Assembly (NCBI GenBank): GCA_012728015.1
Contig: JAAYFY010000001.1
Coordinates: 1-42,821, forward strand
Direction: 5' to 3'
From: Clostridiaceae bacterium
GTDB lineage: Bacteria; Bacillota; Clostridia; DSM-8532
Length of the DNA stretch: 42,821 nucleotides
Shown: positions 5,394-37,400 of the stretch, piece by piece
How positions within the stretch are numbered: position 1 is the first letter of the stretch
Layout of the letters: every line of letters starts with the position of its first letter
Program-made: the position numbers and the translations under genes
The notes under the pieces: model-generated
Database searches by the model: none
Told to the model about the DNA's origin: nothing
Seen by the model: the letters and a program-made list of their open reading frames with translations, nothing else

Positions 5394-6374
5394 TCACAGG
5401 CTGTCGGCAATTGGCCGACACGTTCTTATCCGGCCGCTCCATATTCCGCAGCGATCCCCGAAGCAGCCTATCTCCATCCCGTTTTCACAGATCCTGGCCA
5501 CTTCGCAGCGGTTGGAGCACCCTTCACATTCAAAGCCTTTGGATTCAAAGTGCTTTTCCACGAGTGAGAAGCCCCTGAACCGGGTGCGCGCGCGCTTTCT
5601 CACCGCGTCCCTGGCCAGTATGGCGGCTCCTATGGCTCCCATCATCTTATGGTTTTCCGGAACGGTAACCTCAAACCCCAGTGCCCTCTCAAAGGCAATC
5701 TTCATACTCCTGTTGGCCGCAACGCCGCCCTGAAAAAACACCTTCGGCCTGATGTCCTTGCCCTTCCCCACGTTGTTCAGGTAGTTCCTCACCAGGGCCT
5801 CACACAGTCCCATGATTATATCAGACTGGTTGTATCCCATCTGCTGCTTGTGGATCATGTCACTTTCAGCAAAAACCGCGCAGCGGCCGGCGATCCTTAC
5901 GGGCGTTTCAGCCTTAAGGGCATAATCCCCGAACTCCTCAATGGAAATACCCATTCTTTCTGCCTGCCGGTCCAGAAATGATCCGGTTCCCGCCGCGCAT
6001 ACCGTGTTCATGGCAAAGTCCGATACCACGCCGTTCCTCAGAAGTATAATCTTCGAGTCCTGTCCTCCTATCTCGATAATGGTTTTCACGTCAGGGTCCA
6101 GTTCAAGGGCCGCCACGGCGTGGGCTGTAATCTCATTTTTCACAACATCGGCACCCACCAGGACCGATGCGATCTGTCTGCCGCTTCCGGTGGTGCCGCA
6201 GGCGGCGATCTCCCTATCACCATATTGGTCCGCCAAAAGCCTGAACCCCTCCTGGATTGCCCTGATGGGGTTACCGCGGGTCCGGAGATAATGCTTTTCC
6301 ACCACCTGCAGTCCATGGTCCAGCAAGACCAGGTCAGTGCTCACCGAGCCCACATCAATACCCAGATACAACAT
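5394..6374 (-). CDS. 2-hydroxyacyl-CoA dehydratase activase-like ATPase (BcrAD/BadFG family)
   Basis: A 326-residue ASKHA-fold ATPase. Visible motifs are the phosphate loop GIDVGSVSTDLVLLD at the N-terminus, ACGTTGSGR, EIGGQDSKII, and the Cys-containing NTVCAAGTGSF and AGRCAVFAES segments. In HgdC-type homodimers two such Cys per subunit hold the shared [4Fe-4S] cluster. Activases inject electrons into a partner enzyme at the cost of ATP. An extra C-terminal Cys-rich tail of about 35 residues (CEGCSNRC, then GCFGDRC) goes beyond the plain activase fold. The start at 6374 is chosen for GAAAGGAGAAGAAACC just upstream; it overlaps the preceding gene by 20 bp. No dehydratase subunit pair of classic HgdA/HgdB form is adjacent. 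Confidence 0.85.
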   Translation of the reverse strand: MLYLGIDVGSVSTDLVLLDHGLQVVEKHYLRTRGNPIRAIQEGFRLLADQYGDREIAACGTTGSGRQIASVLVGADVVKNEITAHAVAALELDPDVKTIIEIGGQDSKIILLRNGVVSDFAMNTVCAAGTGSFLDRQAERMGISIEEFGDYALKAETPVRIAGRCAVFAESDMIHKQQMGYNQSDIIMGLCEALVRNYLNNVGKGKDIRPKVFFQGGVAANRSMKIAFERALGFEVTVPENHKMMGAIGAAILARDAVRKRARTRFRGFSLVEKHFESKGFECEGCSNRCEVARICENGMEIGCFGDRCGIWSGRIRTCRPIADSL

Positions 6375-7452
6375 GGTTTCTTCTCCTTTCCAGCATATCG
6401 ACGAACGCCTCAATCCTGGTGACATACCCAGCCTCACCGGTCATCTCGTCCACTACCAGGGAAAGAATGGGGAAATCCTTATCCCTGGCTATGGTTGGCA
6501 GGATGGCTTTGGAAACGATTTCGGGCATGCATCCCATGGGGAATATCTGGATTGCCCCATCAAAACCGCTCTTCCAGGATAGGATGGCTTCACCGACGCA
6601 CTCCCTTGCATGGCCACCGATATAATAGGGCAGATAATCCCTGGACGCTGTTTTTATGCCGGGACTGTTCAGCCCGGCGGGCGAGAGAAGGGTATTTCTT
6701 ATCCACCAGCTGGGGGTCATGAGACGTCTCGTGGATATGCCGCGATCCATCAGCTTGTCCTCAATATATAGATTGGAAAAGGGCTCGATGACAGTATAAA
6801 TCTCGCCGATGATGGCAATCTTCAGGGGGGTTACCGTGCGGTCGCAGGGCACTTCGTTCATCATCCTGTTATAACCATTAAGGCAATCAAGCATCTTGTC
6901 AGGGCTGCCGCAACTATATGCCTCCTGCCTGCACTTTTTCAGGAGATTCTTGCATGTTCCCCGGACTTTCTCGTACCCTGCCTTTTCATGGGCCTTGGCT
7001 TCAACAGCATCCAAAAGGCCCATAATCCTGACCGCCTGCGCCAGGGCAAGCCATTTCCGCCCCTTTGTCCCGGGGCTATGGGCGGTCAGCCTTGAAATCC
7101 TTGCCAAAAGCTCCTTAAAGCCTATGGACTTTGGCGCGTCAATGACGATGAAATCCACCTTGTATCCCAGTCTTCTCAAAAGTTTCATATGCATCTCGGA
7201 ATACTCCCCGAAACGGCAGGGTCCGCAACTGCCTGTAACGATAACTGTATCGGCCCCCTGTTCAATAGCCTGGATATAATTGCCCACCAGGATCTTGAAC
7301 GGAAGGCATATCTCCTCGGGGGAATGAAGTGATCCTATTTCCAGGGCAGCCCTGCTGTTCAGCGGGGGAATTACATAATCCACTCCCAGTCCTTCAAACA
7401 GGGCTTTTGCAGCTATATAAACATTGCCCATATGGGGAATGGTCACTTTCAT
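6355..7452 (-). CDS. Acyl-CoA dehydratase activase-related protein (COG3581-like)
   Basis: This 365-residue protein matches the 2-hydroxyglutaryl-CoA dehydratase-like group usually annotated as predicted nucleotide-binding or CoA-substrate-specific activase-related proteins. It contains several conserved Cys contexts: EEICLPFKILVGN, VTGSCGPCRFGEYSEM and FPMGCMPEIVSK. The end (DEMTGEAGYVTRIEAFVDML) is clearly paralogous to the end of the next gene upstream. The Cys suggest Fe-S binding. Start 7452 is preceded by GAAAGGAGCTGTAAGC. It overlaps both neighbours (59 bp upstream, 20 bp downstream), so the three proteins probably work as a unit. The substrate is unknown. Confidence 0.75.
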   Translation of the reverse strand: MKVTIPHMGNVYIAAKALFEGLGVDYVIPPLNSRAALEIGSLHSPEEICLPFKILVGNYIQAIEQGADTVIVTGSCGPCRFGEYSEMHMKLLRRLGYKVDFIVIDAPKSIGFKELLARISRLTAHSPGTKGRKWLALAQAVRIMGLLDAVEAKAHEKAGYEKVRGTCKNLLKKCRQEAYSCGSPDKMLDCLNGYNRMMNEVPCDRTVTPLKIAIIGEIYTVIEPFSNLYIEDKLMDRGISTRRLMTPSWWIRNTLLSPAGLNSPGIKTASRDYLPYYIGGHARECVGEAILSWKSGFDGAIQIFPMGCMPEIVSKAILPTIARDKDFPILSLVVDEMTGEAGYVTRIEAFVDMLERRRNHVVSGY

Positions 7453-8344
7453 GCTTACAGCTCCTTTCCAGCATGTCCGCAAAGGCTTCAACGCGGGTAT
7501 CCACCCCCGCTTCGCCGGTGTGCTCGTCGATTTTAAGCACCAGCATGGGAAAGTCTTTTATCCTGTCCCTTACAAGCTCGATGATTACCGAATCGATACC
7601 GCAGGCAAAGGATGAAATGTAGACCACGCCCTGCACATGCTTTTTTGACGCAAGGGCGGCGATAAAGCCATAAGTTTTCCTGGCGAAGGTCCAGAAGGGT
7701 TTTTTAAACAGGGCCCGGACCTCCTGTGCGGTGTCTTCCCCGCCTGCGAACTCCTCGGTAATTACTCCCACCCCCAGATTATTGAGCTTTTTCTTTATAT
7801 TCATATTGATGAATGTATCATACAGGTTGTAGGGGTGTCCGGCCAGAGCCACTTTTATGGGGTATCCCTGGTCATGGTAACCTGTCCTGAAGCGGGACTG
7901 CTCATCAACAGCCGCTTCGAGAGCGGATTTTACGCGCCGCCGGTCACGGGTGATCGGACAGGCCGACGCCATGGCCCACTGGCGAAGCCTGGCCATGGTG
8001 GTGGCATAAACAGGATGTGATATGACCTCGGGCAGTCCGGGTATACTGTTGGTCACCATCTCCGGCAGGCCACAGAACTTCGGGCATATATACTCTCCTT
8101 TATACAGCTGCATGATCCTGGGGATGAACACCAGGTCGCATCTGTCCCTGAGATGGCACACATGCCCATGAAACACCTTCACCGGCAGGCAGGCCTCGTC
8201 CACACAATATTGGACACCCGCATCCAGTATGGATTTGTTGGTTTGGGGTGAAATGACCAGTTCGGCCCCGAGCTCAGTAAAAAAGCGTGTGAAAAAGGGG
8301 TGAAACTGATCATACAACAGCCCCCTGGGTATGCCGACTTTCAT
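7394..8344 (-). CDS. DUF2229 / acyl-CoA dehydratase activase-related protein
   Basis: First gene of the three-gene cassette, 316 residues. It starts MKVGIPRGLLYDQFHPFF, the typical opening of DUF2229 (COG3580) proteins. It has Cys contexts QYCVDEACLPVKVFHGH, CPKFCGLPEM and SSFACGIDSV, and ends with EHTGEAGVDTRVEAFADMLE, which the next protein repeats in slightly changed form. In many bacteria this domain is fused to two BcrAD ATPase domains in one protein of about 1400 residues; here the parts are separate genes. The function of DUF2229 proteins is not established. Its upstream leader carries the 8365-8457 repeats. Confidence 0.75.
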   Translation of the reverse strand: MKVGIPRGLLYDQFHPFFTRFFTELGAELVISPQTNKSILDAGVQYCVDEACLPVKVFHGHVCHLRDRCDLVFIPRIMQLYKGEYICPKFCGLPEMVTNSIPGLPEVISHPVYATTMARLRQWAMASACPITRDRRRVKSALEAAVDEQSRFRTGYHDQGYPIKVALAGHPYNLYDTFINMNIKKKLNNLGVGVITEEFAGGEDTAQEVRALFKKPFWTFARKTYGFIAALASKKHVQGVVYISSFACGIDSVIIELVRDRIKDFPMLVLKIDEHTGEAGVDTRVEAFADMLERSCKHESDHSPYGQCLYSCKSPV

Positions 8345-8364: not shown

Positions 8365-8457
8365 CTTTTTTGTGTCATTGCGCGCGAAGCCTTTTTTGTG
8401 TCATTACGTGCGAAGCCTTTTTGTGTCATTGCGAGGAGCAAAGCGACGAAGCAATCT
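8365..8457. repeat. Three tandem copies of a CATTGCGAG-type dispersed repeat
   Basis: Units of 26 bp begin at 8365 and 8391 (CTTTTTTGTGTCATT, then GCGCGCGAAGC or ACGTGCGAAGC), and a third, longer unit starts at 8417, ending with GCGAGGAGCAAAGCGACGAAGCAATCTC. The longest unit has the form of the widespread GTCATTGCGAG...GAAGCAATC intergenic repeat, which folds because TTGC and GCAA are inverted. It occupies most of the gap between the DUF2229 gene and the alcohol dehydrogenase. The rest of that gap shows nothing clear. Confidence 0.75.
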
Positions 8458-24164: not shown

Positions 24165-24293
24165 GTCTCCTCCTCTTCCAGTCCCCGTATCTATTCTTTC
24201 CCCGAAACAGCGTCTCGCAAATCACCGGATAGATGGTTTGCTCAGGCATATTGAAGCTTTTTTGCTATTCTAGCATGAAACCATGATTATTTC

Positions 24294-24309
24294 TGTAACC
24301 ATGGTTACA
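24294..24309. promoter_or_regulatory. Perfect 16-bp palindrome between copA and ku
   Basis: TGTAACCATGGTTACA is a perfect palindrome lying 130 bp before copA and about 80 bp before ku. A related half site (AACCATGATTAT) precedes it. Its form suggests an operator for a dimeric regulator of one or both divergent genes; the regulator is unknown. The surrounding 24165-24387 gap also holds a loose sigma-G-like pair (GCATA at 24246, TATTCTA at 24266, 15 bp apart). Confidence 0.5.
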
Positions 24310-24387
24310 AAAAACTGCCACCGCAGGTACAAAGCACGCATAAGGCATGGGCTAAAAACGAAAGATAACAAAAAGGAGGGTGATGCC

Positions 24388-25236
24388 ATGCATACAATGT
24401 GGAAAGGCTCGGTCAGCTTCGGTCTGGTCAACATACCGGTTAAGATGTTCGCGGCCACCGAGGATAAGGACGTCCGGTTTAGAACCCTGCACAAAAAATG
24501 CCGGACCCCCATAAGGCAGGAGCGTGTCTGCCCGGCCTGCAATGAAAAGGTAGGGCCTGACGACCTGGTCCGGGGCTTTGAGTATGAGCCTGGATTGTTC
24601 GTCCTCATAGATGACGAGGACCTGGAAGCCATTCGTCCGGCCACCGCAAAGACGGCTGAGATCCTGGATTTTGTCGATCTGCGGGAGATAGATCCTATAT
24701 ATTTTGACAAATCCTATTACCTCGCCCCCCAGGATAACAGCGGCAGTAAAGCATACAGCCTGTTATGCCAGGCTATGGAAAAAACGGGAAGGATAGCGGT
24801 TGCCAGGATCACCATAAGAAACAAACAGTCCCTGGCCGTCATCCGTGTGCTCGAAAACGCCCTGGTGCTGGAAACCATTTTTTACCCTGACGAGGTGCGG
24901 CCATTAAGTTTGGTCCCGGGTATTCCGGAAGGCGTAAAAATCGAGGAACGGGAACTTGGCATGGCCCGACAGCTGATAGAAAACCTGACCGCTGAGTTCA
25001 AACCGGAAAAATACAGGGATGAATACAGGGAAGATCTGCTGGAGCTGATACGGAAGAAAGCTGAAGGCAAAGAAATCGTTACCGCTCCCGAAGCGCCGCA
25101 ACGTAATGTTGTGGACCTCATGGCCGCCCTCCAGGCCAGCCTGCAGCAAGCCCAGGAAATGAGGAAACAGGGAAAAACACCCCAAGGCAAGCAGCGTGCA
25201 AAAAAGGGCGGGAAACAGCCGGTTGAGGCAGGGTGA
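24388..25236 (+). CDS. ku: Bacterial Ku, non-homologous end joining
   Basis: 282 residues with the bacterial Ku core: starts MHTMWKGSVSFGLVNIPVKM, followed by the small Cys motif region (HKKCRTPIRQERVCPACN) and the conserved VRGFEYEPGLFVLIDDEDLE stretch. The C-terminus is short and Lys-rich (GKQRAKKGGKQ). Homodimeric Ku encircles DNA ends and recruits the ligase. The ATG at 24388 is preceded by AAAAGGAGGGTGATGCC. The ligase gene follows after 3 bp. In B. subtilis the equivalent genes act in spores. Confidence 0.93.
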   Translation: MHTMWKGSVSFGLVNIPVKMFAATEDKDVRFRTLHKKCRTPIRQERVCPACNEKVGPDDLVRGFEYEPGLFVLIDDEDLEAIRPATAKTAEILDFVDLREIDPIYFDKSYYLAPQDNSGSKAYSLLCQAMEKTGRIAVARITIRNKQSLAVIRVLENALVLETIFYPDEVRPLSLVPGIPEGVKIEERELGMARQLIENLTAEFKPEKYRDEYREDLLELIRKKAEGKEIVTAPEAPQRNVVDLMAALQASLQQAQEMRKQGKTPQGKQRAKKGGKQPVEAG

Positions 25237-25239
25237 TCC

Positions 25240-26178
25240 ATGGAATGGATAGAGCCAATGGAGCCCATTTTAAGGCCAGACGCGGCTTCAGGACATCAAT
25301 GGGTTCACCAGGTCAAGTGGGATGGCATAAGGATCCTCTGCCGGGTGGAAAACGGGAAATATCGGATCTTTACCCGAAACAGGCGTGACCGGACAGAATT
25401 CTATCCCGAGTTGGAAGAGATAACTGGGCTGCTTGGCGTAAAAAGCGCCTGGCTTGACGGTGAAATAGTAGTGTTCGACCAGAACCAGAAGCCGTCCTTT
25501 TACCATGCGCTTGTGCGGGAGAGGCTGAAGAATCCCGAAAGGGCATGCCATTATTCACGGCGGAACCCGGCGCGGTACATCGTATTTGACATCATGAGCC
25601 TGGACGGAAAGGACCTGAGACCCCTCCCCCTGAGGCAGAGGAAGGCCATTCTTGAGGAAAGGCTTGCCCCGGGCAGGAACGTGGCGGTAACCCAGGATTT
25701 TTCAGACGGGGACGCCCTTTTGGCCATTATGAAGCAGAAAGGGTGGGAAGGAATCGTTTCCAAGCAGGCCAACAGCCCATATACCGGAGGGAAAAGGCAC
25801 AGGTACTGGTACAAGACAAAACTGCAAAGAAGGATTCTTTCGGTGGTATGCGGCATCTTTATGAAAGGGGGCATCCCCGCCTCCCTCATTTTGGGCATCA
25901 GGCCCAAAGAAGAATGGGTCTGTATAGGGAGGGCCTCCCTGGGACTTACACAGGATCACTTCCGGCTTCTCATGGAGAACATGGGGTTTTTGGCCGCAGA
26001 TTCGCCCCCGTTCCCCTCGGTTGCAGCAACAAAGGACATCCTGTGGTTCAGGCCCATCCTCACCTGCTGGGTTAGCTTCCTGGAGTGGACCAACGATGGC
26101 AGCCTGAGGCATCCACGAATCCTGGGGTTCAGCACCAGCAGCCCCGATGAGGCCGACGGGACGGAGTATGTGGAGTAA
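25240..26178 (+). CDS. ligD: ATP-dependent DNA ligase (LigD ligase domain as a separate protein)
   Basis: 312 residues, corresponding only to the ligase part of LigD. Motif I is KWDGIR with the adenylated Lys at residue 26; motif III is YIVFDIM, motif IV EGIVSKQ, motif V RYWYKTKL. An OB-fold domain follows (about 200-300). It seals DNA ends held by Ku. The polymerase domain is encoded by a separate gene 480 bp downstream, and no phosphoesterase domain is seen. The gene starts 3 bp after ku, so both are co-translated. Confidence 0.9.
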   Translation: MEWIEPMEPILRPDAASGHQWVHQVKWDGIRILCRVENGKYRIFTRNRRDRTEFYPELEEITGLLGVKSAWLDGEIVVFDQNQKPSFYHALVRERLKNPERACHYSRRNPARYIVFDIMSLDGKDLRPLPLRQRKAILEERLAPGRNVAVTQDFSDGDALLAIMKQKGWEGIVSKQANSPYTGGKRHRYWYKTKLQRRILSVVCGIFMKGGIPASLILGIRPKEEWVCIGRASLGLTQDHFRLLMENMGFLAADSPPFPSVAATKDILWFRPILTCWVSFLEWTNDGSLRHPRILGFSTSSPDEADGTEYVE

Positions 26179-26186
26179 TGGAAGTG

Positions 26187-26252
26187 GGAGGTTGAAGGTT
26201 AGATATAAAGTCCGGCTTCGAAGCCATTCTTATACTCCAACCTCTGACCTCC
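26187..26252. repeat. Short element with imperfect terminal inverted repeats
   Basis: GGAGGTTGAAGGTT (26187-26200) is matched in inverted form by AACCTCTGACCTCC (26239-26252), with a GC-rich centre GGCTTCGAAGCC. The 66-bp unit lies right behind the ligase stop and can fold into a long cruciform, like a miniature inverted-repeat element. Confidence 0.6.
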
Positions 26253-26256
26253 AGTA

Positions 26257-26430
26257 TCGTCATTGCGAGTGAAGCGCAGCAATCTCTTCAAGTGTTCTTG
26301 CAATGACATTCGCGGACTGTCAGCAAAGCGTCAGCGGAGCGCGGCAATCTCATCAGTGCCAACCCACAATGGCATAGATGAGTTGTCAATGCGAAAGGCG
26401 TGGCAATCTCTGCTGCGTTTCGCAAGTGAT
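26257..26430. repeat. Cluster of CATTGCGAG/GCAATCTC dispersed repeats
   Basis: Several degenerate copies occur: CGTCATTGCGAGTGAAGCGCAGCAATCTC at 26258 (given in part), then CTTGCAATGACA, GTCAGCGGAGCGCGGCAATCTCATC, and GTCAATGCGAAAGGCGTGGCAATCTC. They share the TCATTGCGAG and GCAATCTC ends with the repeat at 8417-8457. The remainder of 26430-26655 shows no gene I can support. Confidence 0.7.
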
Positions 26431-26655
26431 TGCGTGTTGCAGCCGCGCTGTTCAGTCTCTCCTTCAGTCCTCGTCGCAGGAAGTTGTACATGCTCATGCG
26501 GAGTCATTCGAGACTGAAACAGCACGTCTCATTTATGCAATTGCAAGCATTGAATTATCATAGGTTGCCTTTTTGAGGAGATTGCCAAGCATCCGGGAAC
26601 TATCCCCCTGGTCCTCCCTGGTTTGCTTTCAAGGAAAGAAAGGAGTGGTTATGGC

Positions 26656-27558
26656 ATGCCGGTTGCCGAAGTTATCATGATCGAGGGAAAAAAGATAAGG
26701 TTCTCCAATCCCGAAAAGCTCCTGTGGCCCAAGGCAGGCATAAGGAAGATCGACTACCTGGCCAGGATGATAGAACTTGCCCCATATATCCTGCCCCATT
26801 CAAAAGACAGGCTTCTTACCTCCATCAGGTACCCCGACGGGGCCGGGGGTAAATCCTTCTTCCAGAAGAACACACCCGAATATGCCCCTGAATGGGTCAA
26901 AACCCATACCTGGAACGACACCGACTATATCCTTTTGGACTCCCTGCCAACGCTGGCCTGGCTTGTGAACCTGGCGGCACTGGAATTCCATACCTCCTTC
27001 AATACCTGGCAGCGGGAGAACCACCCCACCTCCCTGGTCTTCGACCTGGACCCCTCCGAGGGCCAGCGGTTTGAAGACGCCGCAGAGGCCGCCCTGCTGA
27101 TTAAGGAGACGCTGGACTCCCTTTCGGTAAGGGGCTATGCCAAAACCTCGGGCGCAACCGGCCTTCAGATCTATATCCCCACCGGAGGCCGCTACGACTA
27201 CAATGAGGCCCGTCGGATAAACGAGTTCTTCGGCAGGTATTTCAGCCAGAAATATCCCCGGAAGATCACCATAGAGCGTATGGTCGAGAAGAGGGGACAG
27301 AGACTCTACTTTGATTACCTCCAGATGTGGCAGGGCAAGACCATCGCCATGGTGTATACACCGAGGGCCACCGACCATGCGAGCGTATCCATGCCCGTCG
27401 GGTGGGACGAATTGGAAAAAGGCGCACGCCCTGAAGATTTCACGCTGGATAATGCACTGGAAAGGTTAAAAAAGAAGGGCGACCTGTTCGCCCCTCTTCT
27501 TGAGAACCCTGTCCAGGAAAGCCTGGACAGTATCCTGGAATATGCGGGAATATCATGA
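26656..27558 (+). CDS. LigD-type primase-polymerase (PolDom) as a separate protein
   Basis: 300 residues, the stand-alone polymerase domain of LigD (archaeo-eukaryotic primase fold). The catalytic acidic pair is in LVFDLDPSEG (Asp130 and Asp132); the nucleotide-binding strand is KTSGATGLQIYIP, with Gln where many relatives carry His. It fills gaps with ribo- or deoxynucleotides during end joining. The ATG at 26656 is preceded by AAGGAGTGGTTATGGC. It is oriented with ku and ligase but lies beyond a repeat cluster, so it may have its own promoter. The gene ends 12 bp from leuA, convergent. Confidence 0.9.
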   Translation: MPVAEVIMIEGKKIRFSNPEKLLWPKAGIRKIDYLARMIELAPYILPHSKDRLLTSIRYPDGAGGKSFFQKNTPEYAPEWVKTHTWNDTDYILLDSLPTLAWLVNLAALEFHTSFNTWQRENHPTSLVFDLDPSEGQRFEDAAEAALLIKETLDSLSVRGYAKTSGATGLQIYIPTGGRYDYNEARRINEFFGRYFSQKYPRKITIERMVEKRGQRLYFDYLQMWQGKTIAMVYTPRATDHASVSMPVGWDELEKGARPEDFTLDNALERLKKKGDLFAPLLENPVQESLDSILEYAGIS

Positions 27559-33863: not shown

Positions 33864-36800
33864 CTATTCGTTATTCAAACCCTCGGCGGCTACGCCGGCA
33901 AGGCGCTTATAATTATCGTATCGTTCCCTCGCATGCTTTTCGGATACCTCAAACATCTGCTGCGCGATATCAGGGAACACGTTGAACAACGCCTCATACC
34001 GCACCTCGCCATGGAGGAAGTCCTGGTAGGGCATTTTGGGTTCCTTCGAGTCAAGCTGGAACGGGTTCTTGCCCTGCTCCTTCAGGGCGGGATTATACCT
34101 GTAAAGGTGCCAGTACCCCGCATCAACAGCCAGCTTCTCTTCCTGGATGCTGCTGCCCATGCCCTTTCTTATCCCGTGGCTGACACAGGGGGAATATGCG
34201 ATGATTAGCGAAGGACCCGGATAGCTCTCGGCCTCTGTTATGGCCCTGATGGTCTGGTTCATGTCGGCGCCCATGGCTATCTGGGCTACATAAACATACC
34301 CGTAGCTCATGGCCATAAGCCCCAGGTCCTTCTTGCGCGTCTTCTTGCCCGCCGCGGCAAACTTGGCCACCGCAGAGGCGGGAGTGGACTTGGAAGCCTG
34401 GCCGCCGGTGTTGGAGTAGATCTCGGTGTCCATGACGAACAGGTTTACATCATCGCCCATGGCAAGGACATGGTCCACCCCGCCGTAACCTATGTCGTAT
34501 GCCCATCCGTCCCCTCCTATGATCCAGAAGGACCTTTTTGCCAGGAAGTCCTTCTTTTCCATGATCTCGGCAAGCAGCGGGTTCTTTTTCCAGATGTCTT
34601 TTATGCCATCCAGCACGGCCCGTGACGCGGCCTTTGAGGCCTCTCCATCTTCCCTGGTCTCAAGCCATTTTCTGAGGGCGTTCTTAACCCCCTCGGGCAG
34701 TTCGGTCTTAAGGGCTTCTGTCATAAGCTCGGATAGCCTTTCACGGACTTGCTTGACACCCAGGTACATGCCGTAGCCGTACTCGGCGTTATCCTCAAAC
34801 AATGAATTGGCCCAGGCGGGACCCCTTCCCTTCTCATCGGTGCTGTAGGCCATGGAAGGCGCGCTTGCCCCCCAGATGGACGAACAGCCGGTGGCATTGG
34901 CAATCATCATCCTGTCACCGAAGAGCTGAGTCAGAAGGCGAATATACGGCGTCTCCCCGCAGCCGGGGCACGCGCCGTTGAATTCAAGAAGCGGCCGCCT
35001 GAACTGGCTTCCCTTCACGGTATTAGGGTTCATCACGTCGCCCTTGTCCTTCAGAGTCATGGCAAACTCCCAATTTTCGGCCTCGGCAAGTATCTCCTGC
35101 TCAGCCGGCTTCATGATAAGCGCCTTTCCCTTGGCGGGACAGACGTTGGCGCAGTTGGAACACCCCGTGCAATCCAGCGGGGCTAACTGTATGCGGTATT
35201 GATAATTCTCAAGTCCTTTTCCGATGGCCTGTTTTGTCTCGAAGCTTTCCGGTGCCCTGGCCGCTTCCTCCTCATCCAGGAGGAACGGGCGTATGGTTGC
35301 ATGGGGACAGATATATGAGCATTGGTTGCACTGGATGCATTTTTCGATCTGCCATTGGGGAATCATAACGGCTATGCCTCGCTTCTCATAGGCTGTGGTC
35401 CCCGGAGGCCACGACCCATCCTCCATGCCCGCAAAAGCGCTGACGGGAAGTTCGTCGCCCTCCATCCTGGTCATCACCTTATGAACCCTTTTTTTGAATT
35501 CAGGCTCTTCCTTTATGGGCTGTCCTTCATCCGCCGCATCCTTCCAGGACTCGGGCACCTTTACCTCAACCAGCCGTTCGATCCCCATATCCACTGCCTT
35601 ATTGTTCATTTCCACGATCTTACGGCCCTTTTTACCGTACATCTTTTCAATCATTTCCTTAAGGTATCTTGCCGCGTCTTCCACGGGTATGATATTGGCC
35701 ACCTTGAAGAAGGCCGCCTGCATGATCATGTTGATCCTGTTCCCCAGGCCGATCTCTCCCGCGATGCCTATGGCGTCGATTATATAGAACCTGATGTTAT
35801 TCCCGGCGATGTACCGCTTTATGGCGGCAGGTAGTTCGTTGTCCAGCTGGTTCTCCTGCCAGGGACAGTTCAGGACGAATGTACCGCTGGGCTTTAAGCC
35901 CTTCAGGATATCATAGTTGTATATGAAGGATTTGTTATGGCAGGCTATATAATCGGCCTTATAAACCAGGTAGGGAGATTTGAGCGGTTTCGGCCCGAAT
36001 CTCAGGTGGGAAACCGTAGTCCCTCCAGACTTTTTGCTGTCGTAGGAGAAGTATGCCTGGACATGCAGATCGGTGTTGCCTCCGATTATTTGGACGGCCC
36101 CTTTGTTGGCCCCCACCGTCCCGTCCGAGCCAAGCCCGAAGAATTTACAGCTGATGGTCCCCTCGGGCAGGGTATCGATAATCTCCCCGTCAGGAAGGGA
36201 AGTATTGGTAACATCGTCAACTATACCGATGGTGAAATGATCCCTGGGTATCTTCTGCATCAGGTTCCGGAAGACCGCCAGTATCTGGGATGGCCTGGTG
36301 TCCTTCGAGCCCAGCCCGTATCTTCCGCCAACGATCAGCGGCTTTTCGCCCGTATCATAAAACAGTTTCACAACGTCAAGATACAAGGGCTCGCCCGGTG
36401 CCCCCGGCTCTTTGGTCCTGTCCAGGACAGCAATGCGCTTTACAGTTCTGGGCAGAATATCGAAGAAATGTTTTGCTGAAAACGGCCGGTAAAGGCGGAC
36501 CTTTACCACGCCTGTCTTTTCTCCCCTTTTGTTCAGGTAATCCACCGTTTCCCCGATGGTATCGCAGACCGATCCCATGGCCACGATCACATATTCCGCG
36601 TCCCTTGCCCCGTAATAATCAAAAGGTCTGTACAGCCTTCCTGTGATGCTGTGGATGTCCTGCATGACCTTGTCCACTATGTCCGGTACCCTGTCAAAAA
36701 ACGGGTTTTGGACTTCCCTGCCCTGGAAGTAGATATCCGGGTTCTGGGCTGTCCCCCTGATTTTGGGCTGACCGGGATTCAGCGCGCTGTCCCTGAAGGC

Positions 36801-37400
36801 TTTTATCGCATCGTAGTCAAGAATCCTTTCCAGGTCCTCATAATCGATGACGCTTATCTTCTGGTACTCATGGGAGGTCCTGAACCCGTCGAAGAAATGG
36901 ATAAAAGGCAGCCTGGCCTTAATGGCCGAAAGGTGGGCTGCGCAGGCCAGGTCCATAACCTCCTGGATATTGGATGAAACCAGCATGGGCGCGCCAGTCT
37001 GGCGGCAGGCCATAACATCCTGGTGGTCCCCGAATATCGATAGGGCATGGGTAGCTATGGCCCTGGCTGAAACGTGCAACGCCCCGGGCAGGAGTTCCCC
37101 GACCATCTTGTATATGTTGGGTATCATCAAAAGAAGCCCCTGGGATGCCGTATAGGTGGTGGTCAGGGCACCTGCGGCCAGTGATCCGTGCAGGGCACCG
37201 GCAGCACCGGCTTCGGACTGCATTTCCACCACCTTGACCGGTCGCCCGAACAGGTTCTTCTTCCCATGGGCCGACCATTCATCAACTGTTTCGGCCATTG
37301 GGGATGAAGGGGTGATCGGAAAAATGGCCGCCACCTCGGTAAAGGCATATGAGGCATAGGCCGCGGCCTGATTGCCATCCATTGTCTCCAACCTGGACAT
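33864..37400 (-). CDS. nifJ: Pyruvate:ferredoxin (flavodoxin) oxidoreductase
   Basis: 1178 residues, full length for the homodimeric enzyme with all domains fused. Domain I begins YASYAFTEVAAIFPITPSSP. The 2[4Fe-4S] ferredoxin domain has CIQCNQCSYICPH (about residue 690) and CTGCSNCANVCPA (about 745). The thiamine diphosphate domain has GACPGCGETPY, GCSSIWG and GGDGWAYDIGYGG. It converts pyruvate and CoA to acetyl-CoA, CO2 and reduced ferredoxin, the central reaction of anaerobic pyruvate use. The ATG at 37400 follows AAAGGAGTATTGAGAT. Confidence 0.96.
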   Translation of the reverse strand: MSRLETMDGNQAAAYASYAFTEVAAIFPITPSSPMAETVDEWSAHGKKNLFGRPVKVVEMQSEAGAAGALHGSLAAGALTTTYTASQGLLLMIPNIYKMVGELLPGALHVSARAIATHALSIFGDHQDVMACRQTGAPMLVSSNIQEVMDLACAAHLSAIKARLPFIHFFDGFRTSHEYQKISVIDYEDLERILDYDAIKAFRDSALNPGQPKIRGTAQNPDIYFQGREVQNPFFDRVPDIVDKVMQDIHSITGRLYRPFDYYGARDAEYVIVAMGSVCDTIGETVDYLNKRGEKTGVVKVRLYRPFSAKHFFDILPRTVKRIAVLDRTKEPGAPGEPLYLDVVKLFYDTGEKPLIVGGRYGLGSKDTRPSQILAVFRNLMQKIPRDHFTIGIVDDVTNTSLPDGEIIDTLPEGTISCKFFGLGSDGTVGANKGAVQIIGGNTDLHVQAYFSYDSKKSGGTTVSHLRFGPKPLKSPYLVYKADYIACHNKSFIYNYDILKGLKPSGTFVLNCPWQENQLDNELPAAIKRYIAGNNIRFYIIDAIGIAGEIGLGNRINMIMQAAFFKVANIIPVEDAARYLKEMIEKMYGKKGRKIVEMNNKAVDMGIERLVEVKVPESWKDAADEGQPIKEEPEFKKRVHKVMTRMEGDELPVSAFAGMEDGSWPPGTTAYEKRGIAVMIPQWQIEKCIQCNQCSYICPHATIRPFLLDEEEAARAPESFETKQAIGKGLENYQYRIQLAPLDCTGCSNCANVCPAKGKALIMKPAEQEILAEAENWEFAMTLKDKGDVMNPNTVKGSQFRRPLLEFNGACPGCGETPYIRLLTQLFGDRMMIANATGCSSIWGASAPSMAYSTDEKGRGPAWANSLFEDNAEYGYGMYLGVKQVRERLSELMTEALKTELPEGVKNALRKWLETREDGEASKAASRAVLDGIKDIWKKNPLLAEIMEKKDFLAKRSFWIIGGDGWAYDIGYGGVDHVLAMGDDVNLFVMDTEIYSNTGGQASKSTPASAVAKFAAAGKKTRKKDLGLMAMSYGYVYVAQIAMGADMNQTIRAITEAESYPGPSLIIAYSPCVSHGIRKGMGSSIQEEKLAVDAGYWHLYRYNPALKEQGKNPFQLDSKEPKMPYQDFLHGEVRYEALFNVFPDIAQQMFEVSEKHARERYDNYKRLAGVAAEGLNNE

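Follow-up and report, generated by a model that had tools for sequence, protein, structure and literature searches.

ATP-driven injection of an electron at a [4Fe-4S] cluster held by three cysteines is among the few biological routes to the potentials of Birch-type or ketyl-radical chemistry. The closest described systems are the (R)-2-hydroxyacyl-CoA dehydratases (HAD), the class I benzoyl-CoA reductases (BCR) and the double-cubane protein DCCP. In BzdO, three cysteines (Cys95, Cys128 and Cys380) hold the catalytic [4Fe-4S] cluster, and its fourth ligand is water or hydroxide; six cysteines are required for the [8Fe-9S] double cubane of BzdN (PMC11971306). Here we examine a locus in a 42,821-nucleotide stretch (hereafter the window) of contig JAAYFY010000001.1 from Clostridiaceae bacterium (assembly GCA_012728015.1; the genome, G000, is 99.9% complete). 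A first-pass annotation had proposed that three overlapping genes in this window encode a self-contained ATP-driven system for low-potential electron transfer without a classical dehydratase. The three genes are real and lie on the minus strand (8344-5394). We consider it probable that they form a complete, split, ATP-driven two-component iron-sulfur (Fe-S) system of the HAD/BCR/DCCP superfamily, with P1 as the electron donor and P2/P3 as the catalytic unit. The genes were labeled P3, P2 and P1 in the order of reading:

7394..8344, minus strand: P3, a short DUF2229 protein (316 aa; Cys52, Cys87 and Cys248), predicted subunit of HgdA/HgdB type
6355..7452, minus strand: P2, a long DUF2229 protein (365 aa; Cys49, Cys79 and Cys308), predicted partner subunit of HgdA/HgdB type; ATG at 7452
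5394..6374, minus strand: P1, a BcrAD/HgdC-type activase ATPase of 326 aa, with Cys126, Cys165 and a C-terminal cysteine tail; ATG at 6374
7394..7452, minus strand: P3/P2 gene overlap of 59 bp; the P3 L-E-R codons (CTG GAA AGG AGC) contain an AAGGAG Shine-Dalgarno-like sequence for P2
6355..6374, minus strand: P2/P1 gene overlap of 20 bp; the P2 L-E-R-R codons (CTG GAA AGG AGA) contain an AAGGAG Shine-Dalgarno-like sequence for P1

P2 and P3 are modeled as a divergent HgdA/HgdB-like pair

Both proteins matched the DUF2229 family (PF09989), P3 over its full length with an E-value of 7e-53 and P2 more weakly at 1.9e-8, still above the cut-off. The C-terminal part of P3 also matched HGD-D (PF06050; E 4.8e-8, 33.4 bits versus a cut-off of 28.4), and the corresponding C-terminal match of P2 was below that cut-off (E 6.6e-5, 23.1 bits). 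P2 and P3 are homologous to each other (BLASTP E 2e-18; profile-profile E 2.6e-40). Their common EMTGEAG/EHTGEAG..TRxEAFxDM block is homologous to the C-terminal region of HAD/DCCP proteins (D..EEDQGQLKTRIEAFLEM in DCCP), and a profile match aligned the P3 C-terminus to DCCP with the third cysteine included. Against the DCCP equivalog model NF040772, P3 scored 12.9 bits with a cut-off of 350 and P2 had no match. Searching solved structures with the P2 sequence alone gave no match, and the P2 profile returned HAD/DCCP rows only, all of them sub-significant. Since sequence and profile searches were insufficient for P2, a fold search was needed.

Single-chain AlphaFold models were built from alignments of 70 sequences for P2 (pLDDT 91.3, pTM 0.89) and 71 sequences for P3 (pLDDT 93.7, pTM 0.89) and compared with the PDB by Foldseek and VIA. 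Both models clearly matched HadBC (3o3m/n/o), DCCP (6eno, 7yyl, 7yzm), BzdNO (8s02, 8s2r) and MbdON (9g87, 9gai). Foldseek E-values for HAD, BCR and DCCP chains were about 1e-9 to 1e-5; the best match of P2 was 3o3m at 1e-9, followed by DCCP, BzdNO and MbdON, and the best clear matches of P3 were 3o3m, 8s02, 7yyl and 6eno. By VIA, the P2 model aligned with 3o3m over 310 residues at 4.2 A with a Z of 16.8 (family Z 13-17, unrelated rows from 9.4), and the P3 model over 251 residues at 4.1 A with a Z of 14.3 (family Z 11-14, unrelated rows from 9.2). HAD, BCR and DCCP chains were the sole group well over background for P2 and P3 alike. Matches to lumazine synthase, binding proteins and other Rossmann-like folds (Z of about 8-9) were set aside as the background of a common arrangement. 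Because both models clearly match HAD/BCR/DCCP chains, the modeling shows a two-lobed HgdA/HgdB-type fold for the DUF2229 pair.

P2 has exactly three invariant cysteines (49, 79 and 308, in 96/96 homologues), and so does P3 (52, 87 and 248, in 95/95). The spacing in P2 (30, 229) resembles that in BzdO (33, 252), and the three-cysteine sets of both proteins are retained in the matching modules of two fused proteins, described below, that the same genome encodes. As there are three invariant cysteines per subunit versus six for [8Fe-9S], one open-site three-cysteine [4Fe-4S] cluster per subunit is predicted from the sequences, and not a six-cysteine double cubane.

These results modify the first-pass annotation in part. 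Its assignment of a BcrAD-type ATPase and two paralogous DUF2229 proteins was borne out by the profile E-values, BLASTP and the profile-profile comparison, and the shared C-terminal EMTGEAG/EHTGEAG block that it pointed out is present. Its proposal of a self-contained electron-transfer system gains support from an activase with two cysteine-bearing partners of HAD/BCR/DCCP fold. The absence of an adjacent HgdA/HgdB pair holds by Pfam, and for the whole genome, but not by fold: going by the models, no dehydratase is missing, and the description "without a classical dehydratase" gives way to one in which P2 and P3 themselves are that pair in divergent form. The likeness it drew to double-cubane proteins is valid for the fold and the two-component logic; it is not the best comparison for the cluster, since three invariant cysteines per subunit fit the [4Fe-4S] site of HAD and BzdO better than the six-cysteine [8Fe-9S].

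P1 is an activase with an additional four-cysteine tail

P1 belongs to BcrAD_BadFG (PF01869) by profile search (E 1.2e-45). It passes TIGR00241 (E 3.9e-56, 190.3 bits versus a cut-off of 125.4), a model of 248 positions that covers residues 3-253 with the ASKHA ATPase domain. Among solved structures, it is most closely related to MbdQ and to the activator of (R)-2-hydroxyglutaryl-CoA dehydratase; the phmmer match to 1hux (E 4.7e-37) is limited to P1 residues 3-261. P1 was below the equivalog cut-offs for class I benzoyl-CoA reductase subunits A, D or Q (101.3 vs 578, 69.5 vs 312.85 and 86.5 vs 380.2 bits, respectively).

Six cysteines of P1 are invariant in 89/89 homologues. Cys126 and Cys165 are the canonical cluster cysteines and are also kept in all four activase modules of the fused proteins. 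The other four form a C-terminal tail, C283-x2-C286-x3-C290 plus C309, which extends past the solved activases (243-276 aa); these lack the tail, and their match to P1 ends near residue 260. By homology, a P1 homodimer would hold one [4Fe-4S] cluster between Cys126 and Cys165 of both chains, and a second cluster, which would accept an electron from ferredoxin, probably sits in the tail. The window encodes a source of low-potential ferredoxin, pyruvate:ferredoxin oxidoreductase (PFOR), at 33864-37400.

In the mechanism that we propose, P1 would use the binding and hydrolysis of ATP to drive one electron of very low potential into a heterodimer of P2 and P3. Each subunit of that heterodimer may have a [4Fe-4S] cluster with three cysteine ligands and one iron left open, as the invariant 3+3 cysteines and the precedents of BzdO and HAD suggest. 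A substrate would bind at one open-site cluster and be reduced there, as in HAD and BzdO, and the reaction may be a substrate reduction or a radical dehydration. Some observations weigh against this proposal. P2 and P3 have only 8-19% overall identity to solved HAD/BCR/DCCP chains, the comparison of their cysteines with the ligands of solved clusters used sequence and spacing in place of superposed coordinates, and P3-P2 pairs occur with no adjacent activase in loci L062, L063, L092, L098 and L107.

Gene order and overlaps are conserved

Upstream TTG and GTG codons allow longer open reading frames for P2 and P1, yet an AAGGAG lies just 5' of the ATG in each. The 20-bp P2/P1 overlap (17 plus the stop codon) was also found in 41/84 homologous loci, and the same size classes were seen again in homologues for both overlaps. 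As the order P3-P2-P1 with similar overlaps is repeated in dozens of genomes, this arrangement is not due to chance. It is likely from these sequences that the conserved C-terminal L-E-R(-R) motif of one protein doubles as a ribosome-binding site for the next gene. Translation of the three genes may be coupled through the overlaps in this way, the LERR codons serving the gene that follows.

Distribution and fused forms of the cassette

We examined 398 genomes of the phylum, scoring the split cassette by a P2 match with E<1e-25 and an HGD-D protein by E<=1e-30. With PF09989 above cut-off in both P2 and P3 and a BcrAD activase adjoining, the locus belongs to the split form of the DUF2229 activase-related family. 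The split cassette was present in 276/398 genomes and HGD-D in 200; 172 had both and 104 had the cassette without HGD-D. This DUF2229 gene set is common in anaerobic Bacillota.

These numbers bear on the possibility that P1 activates a dedicated, distantly encoded HgdAB dehydratase with P2 and P3 as accessory proteins. The activators nearest to P1 are indeed those of (R)-2-hydroxyglutaryl-CoA dehydratase and 3-methylbenzoyl-CoA reductase. However, no HGD-D protein was detected by Pfam outside the cassette in the whole of this genome, and P2 and P3 themselves carry the modeled fold and the invariant predicted cluster cysteines. Since 104 of the 276 cassette genomes are without any HGD-D, the cassette is not an activator of an HGD-D dehydratase. 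A distant dehydratase that always co-occurs, which the first-pass annotation had named as evidence against its own proposal, was thus not found, and we regard this explanation as very improbable.

The domains are fused elsewhere, as that annotation had noted, and two of the fused proteins are in the same genome, with the order activase-activase-P3-P2:

L046 9084-13367 (G000:C56): fused double-activase-DUF2229 protein of 1428 aa, co-linear with the split cassette except for a second activase module
L047 8229-12533 (G000:C62): fused double-activase-DUF2229 protein of 1435 aa, co-linear with the split cassette except for a second activase module

In these proteins, the four-cysteine tail is present only on the second activase module. 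Among the fused cousins and other REARRANGEMENTS, L069 has P3 and P2 joined in one protein of 721 aa, and L051 (8588-14028) has one activase gene after two P3-P2 pairs that belong to different subfamilies. The L051 arrangement is consistent with catalysis by P3-P2 pairs that draw on P1 as a common donor.

Two DUF2229 proteins regarded as uncharacterised have, by model and by their cysteines, the features of the catalytic pair of a system for such low-potential chemistry. Most of the genomes sampled across the phylum have the cassette, and this genome has it three times when the fused forms are included.

Neighboring genes and a possible link to sporulation

Besides the cassette, the window encodes ABC transporter permeases, SerC, a LysM-GH18 protein, a gerA operon, a znu-type transporter, a P-type ATPase, Ku/LigD-type genes, an HMGL-like enzyme, FeoB, PFOR and UxuA. 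A zinc alcohol dehydrogenase gene lies 220 bp upstream of the cassette on the same strand. None of these neighbors indicates a substrate. The cassette neighbors are unrelated in the nearest relatives (Caloramator, Clostridium homopropionicum, C. carboxidivorans and Sedimentibacter). The conserved fourth gene for which the first-pass annotation had suggested a survey was not found in the subfamily of the window, where neighbors included exonuclease, peptidase, GH8, TetR, ProRS, Hsp20, RsgA and others; in other branches, the cassette often lies beside the spoVA operon.

Across the neighborhoods surveyed, no gene for an acyl-CoA, hydroxy-acid or other enzyme consistently adjoined the cassette. 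The lack of substrate-pathway genes nearby would suit a reductive reactivase or metallocluster maturase, in which P2 and P3 turn over no small substrate themselves and instead supply a different enzyme with an electron or assembled cluster. The split cassette and its fused cousins also occur in species of differing metabolism, and BcrAD-type ATPases are found in non-dehydratase systems as well: TIGR03286 (methanogenesis marker 15) matched P1 at E 2e-35, under its cut-off. An MCR activation paper mentions neither marker 15 nor activases. No client protein, on the other hand, was identified, and the two distinct P3-P2 pairs behind one activase in L051 better fit substrate-specific catalytic units. 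We consider such a role unlikely, and favor P2/P3 as a catalytic unit that receives electrons from P1.

In Desulfotomaculaceae, Peptococcaceae, Syntrophomonadaceae, Halobacteroidaceae and others, the cassette stands directly after genes of the dacF-spoIIAA-spoIIAB-sigF-spoVAC-AD-AE-AF region, in which the names spoIIAA and spoIIAB rest on position and size. It is directly or closely downstream of sigF/spoVA genes in L057, L058, L060, L061, L063, L116-L122, L124-L127, L129-L133, L135 and L143. About 20 sampled loci have it 2-290 bp downstream of spoVAF on the same strand. Among the matches listed, it lies within 10 kb of spoVAD (<=10 kb) in 27/73 genomes of 14 families, with about 0.7 expected by random placement. 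SpoVAD was present in 266/276 cassette genomes versus 71/122 without the cassette, an odds ratio of 19 that ignores kinship. The window genome has SpoVAD, and the gerA operon and LysM-GH18 gene are near its cassette. These findings raise the possibility, which we hold to be doubtful, that cassettes of this family encode an ATP-driven reductase expressed in the forespore of anaerobic spore formers, where it would be needed to form spores, for spore metabolite chemistry or to keep spore enzymes reduced.

The window copy, however, is in a separate tree branch from the spoVA-linked copies and the spoVAD of its genome is on a different contig (C82), for which reasons a spoVA linkage of this copy was rejected; its nearest relatives, as noted, have unrelated neighbors. 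There was no association in its own class (both genes in 2 genomes, cassette only in 2, SpoVAD only in 6, neither in 6), and the cassette is kept in ten genomes without SpoVAD. The conserved gene order may have been inherited and, judged by eye in families with both states, loss and retention of the cassette are about equally frequent in genomes without spoVAD. The main text of two papers on the C. difficile sporulation regulon mentions no activase or dehydratase, and the literature searched contained no functional study of DUF2229, of COG3580/COG3581, or of activase/COG1924 in sporulation. In one branch, the evidence that the cassette has a role near sporulation is good; for the window copy there is none. 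The spoVA linkage in that branch offers a concrete and cheap route to testing function in anaerobic spore formers. Speculatively, DUF2229 cassettes could be a further catalytic branch of the superfamily with a four-cysteine activase tail that, in one large branch, became the last module of the spoVA operon, performing forespore low-potential chemistry that aerobic spore formers do without.

Other features were observed at these loci. Between the alcohol dehydrogenase and the cassette (window 8365-8456) there are three direct repeats of 25-26 bp (CTTTTTTGTGTCATTGCG..GCGAAGC) with the end TGTCATTGCGAGGAGCAAAGCGACGAAGCAATC, resembling a dispersed repeat element. At 24283-27558, Ku, an ATP-dependent DNA ligase and a LigD primase-polymerase are encoded by three separate genes (non-homologous end joining) in this small anaerobe genome. 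The cassettes of L092, L098, L107 and L051 adjoin a membrane protein of about 230 aa that by eye is PrsW protease-like; the activase is not adjacent in L092, L098 and L107. In Tissierellia-type loci (L091-L109), the cassette is often preceded by a protein of about 487 aa without a Pfam match and an RNase H-fold protein.

Comparison with known systems

The cassette resembles the (R)-2-hydroxyacyl-CoA dehydratases (HgdC/HgdAB and HadI/HadBC; 1hux and 3o3m) in having an activase and two paralogous subunits, in the HgdA/HgdB fold modeled for almost all of P2 and P3, in the C-terminal TRxEAFxxM motif and in three conserved cysteines per subunit. Unlike in those enzymes, P2 and P3 (only 10-19% identical to them) belong to another Pfam family, DUF2229, P3 is shorter, the activase has the extra four-cysteine tail and no hydroxyacyl-CoA genes are near. 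With the class I benzoyl-CoA reductases (BzdNOPQ and MbdONPQ), it has in common two structurally similar subunits, a BcrAD ATPase and, as predicted, a three-cysteine [4Fe-4S] site like that of BzdO, but it has no six-cysteine double-cubane subunit, one activase gene instead of a pair and no aromatic-degradation genes. DCCP/DCCP-R (6eno, 7yyl) is similar in fold, in its ATP-driven two-component logic and in the aligned C-terminal cysteine; DCCP, however, is a homodimer with one six-cysteine double cubane per chain, whereas P2 and P3 are a pair of paralogues with three invariant cysteines each. The fused DUF2229 "CoA enzyme activase" proteins of about 1430 aa, of which C56 and C62 are the two in this genome, have the same modules and the same P2/P3 cysteines, but are built with two activase modules per chain, only the second with the four-cysteine tail, in the order activase-activase-P3-P2.

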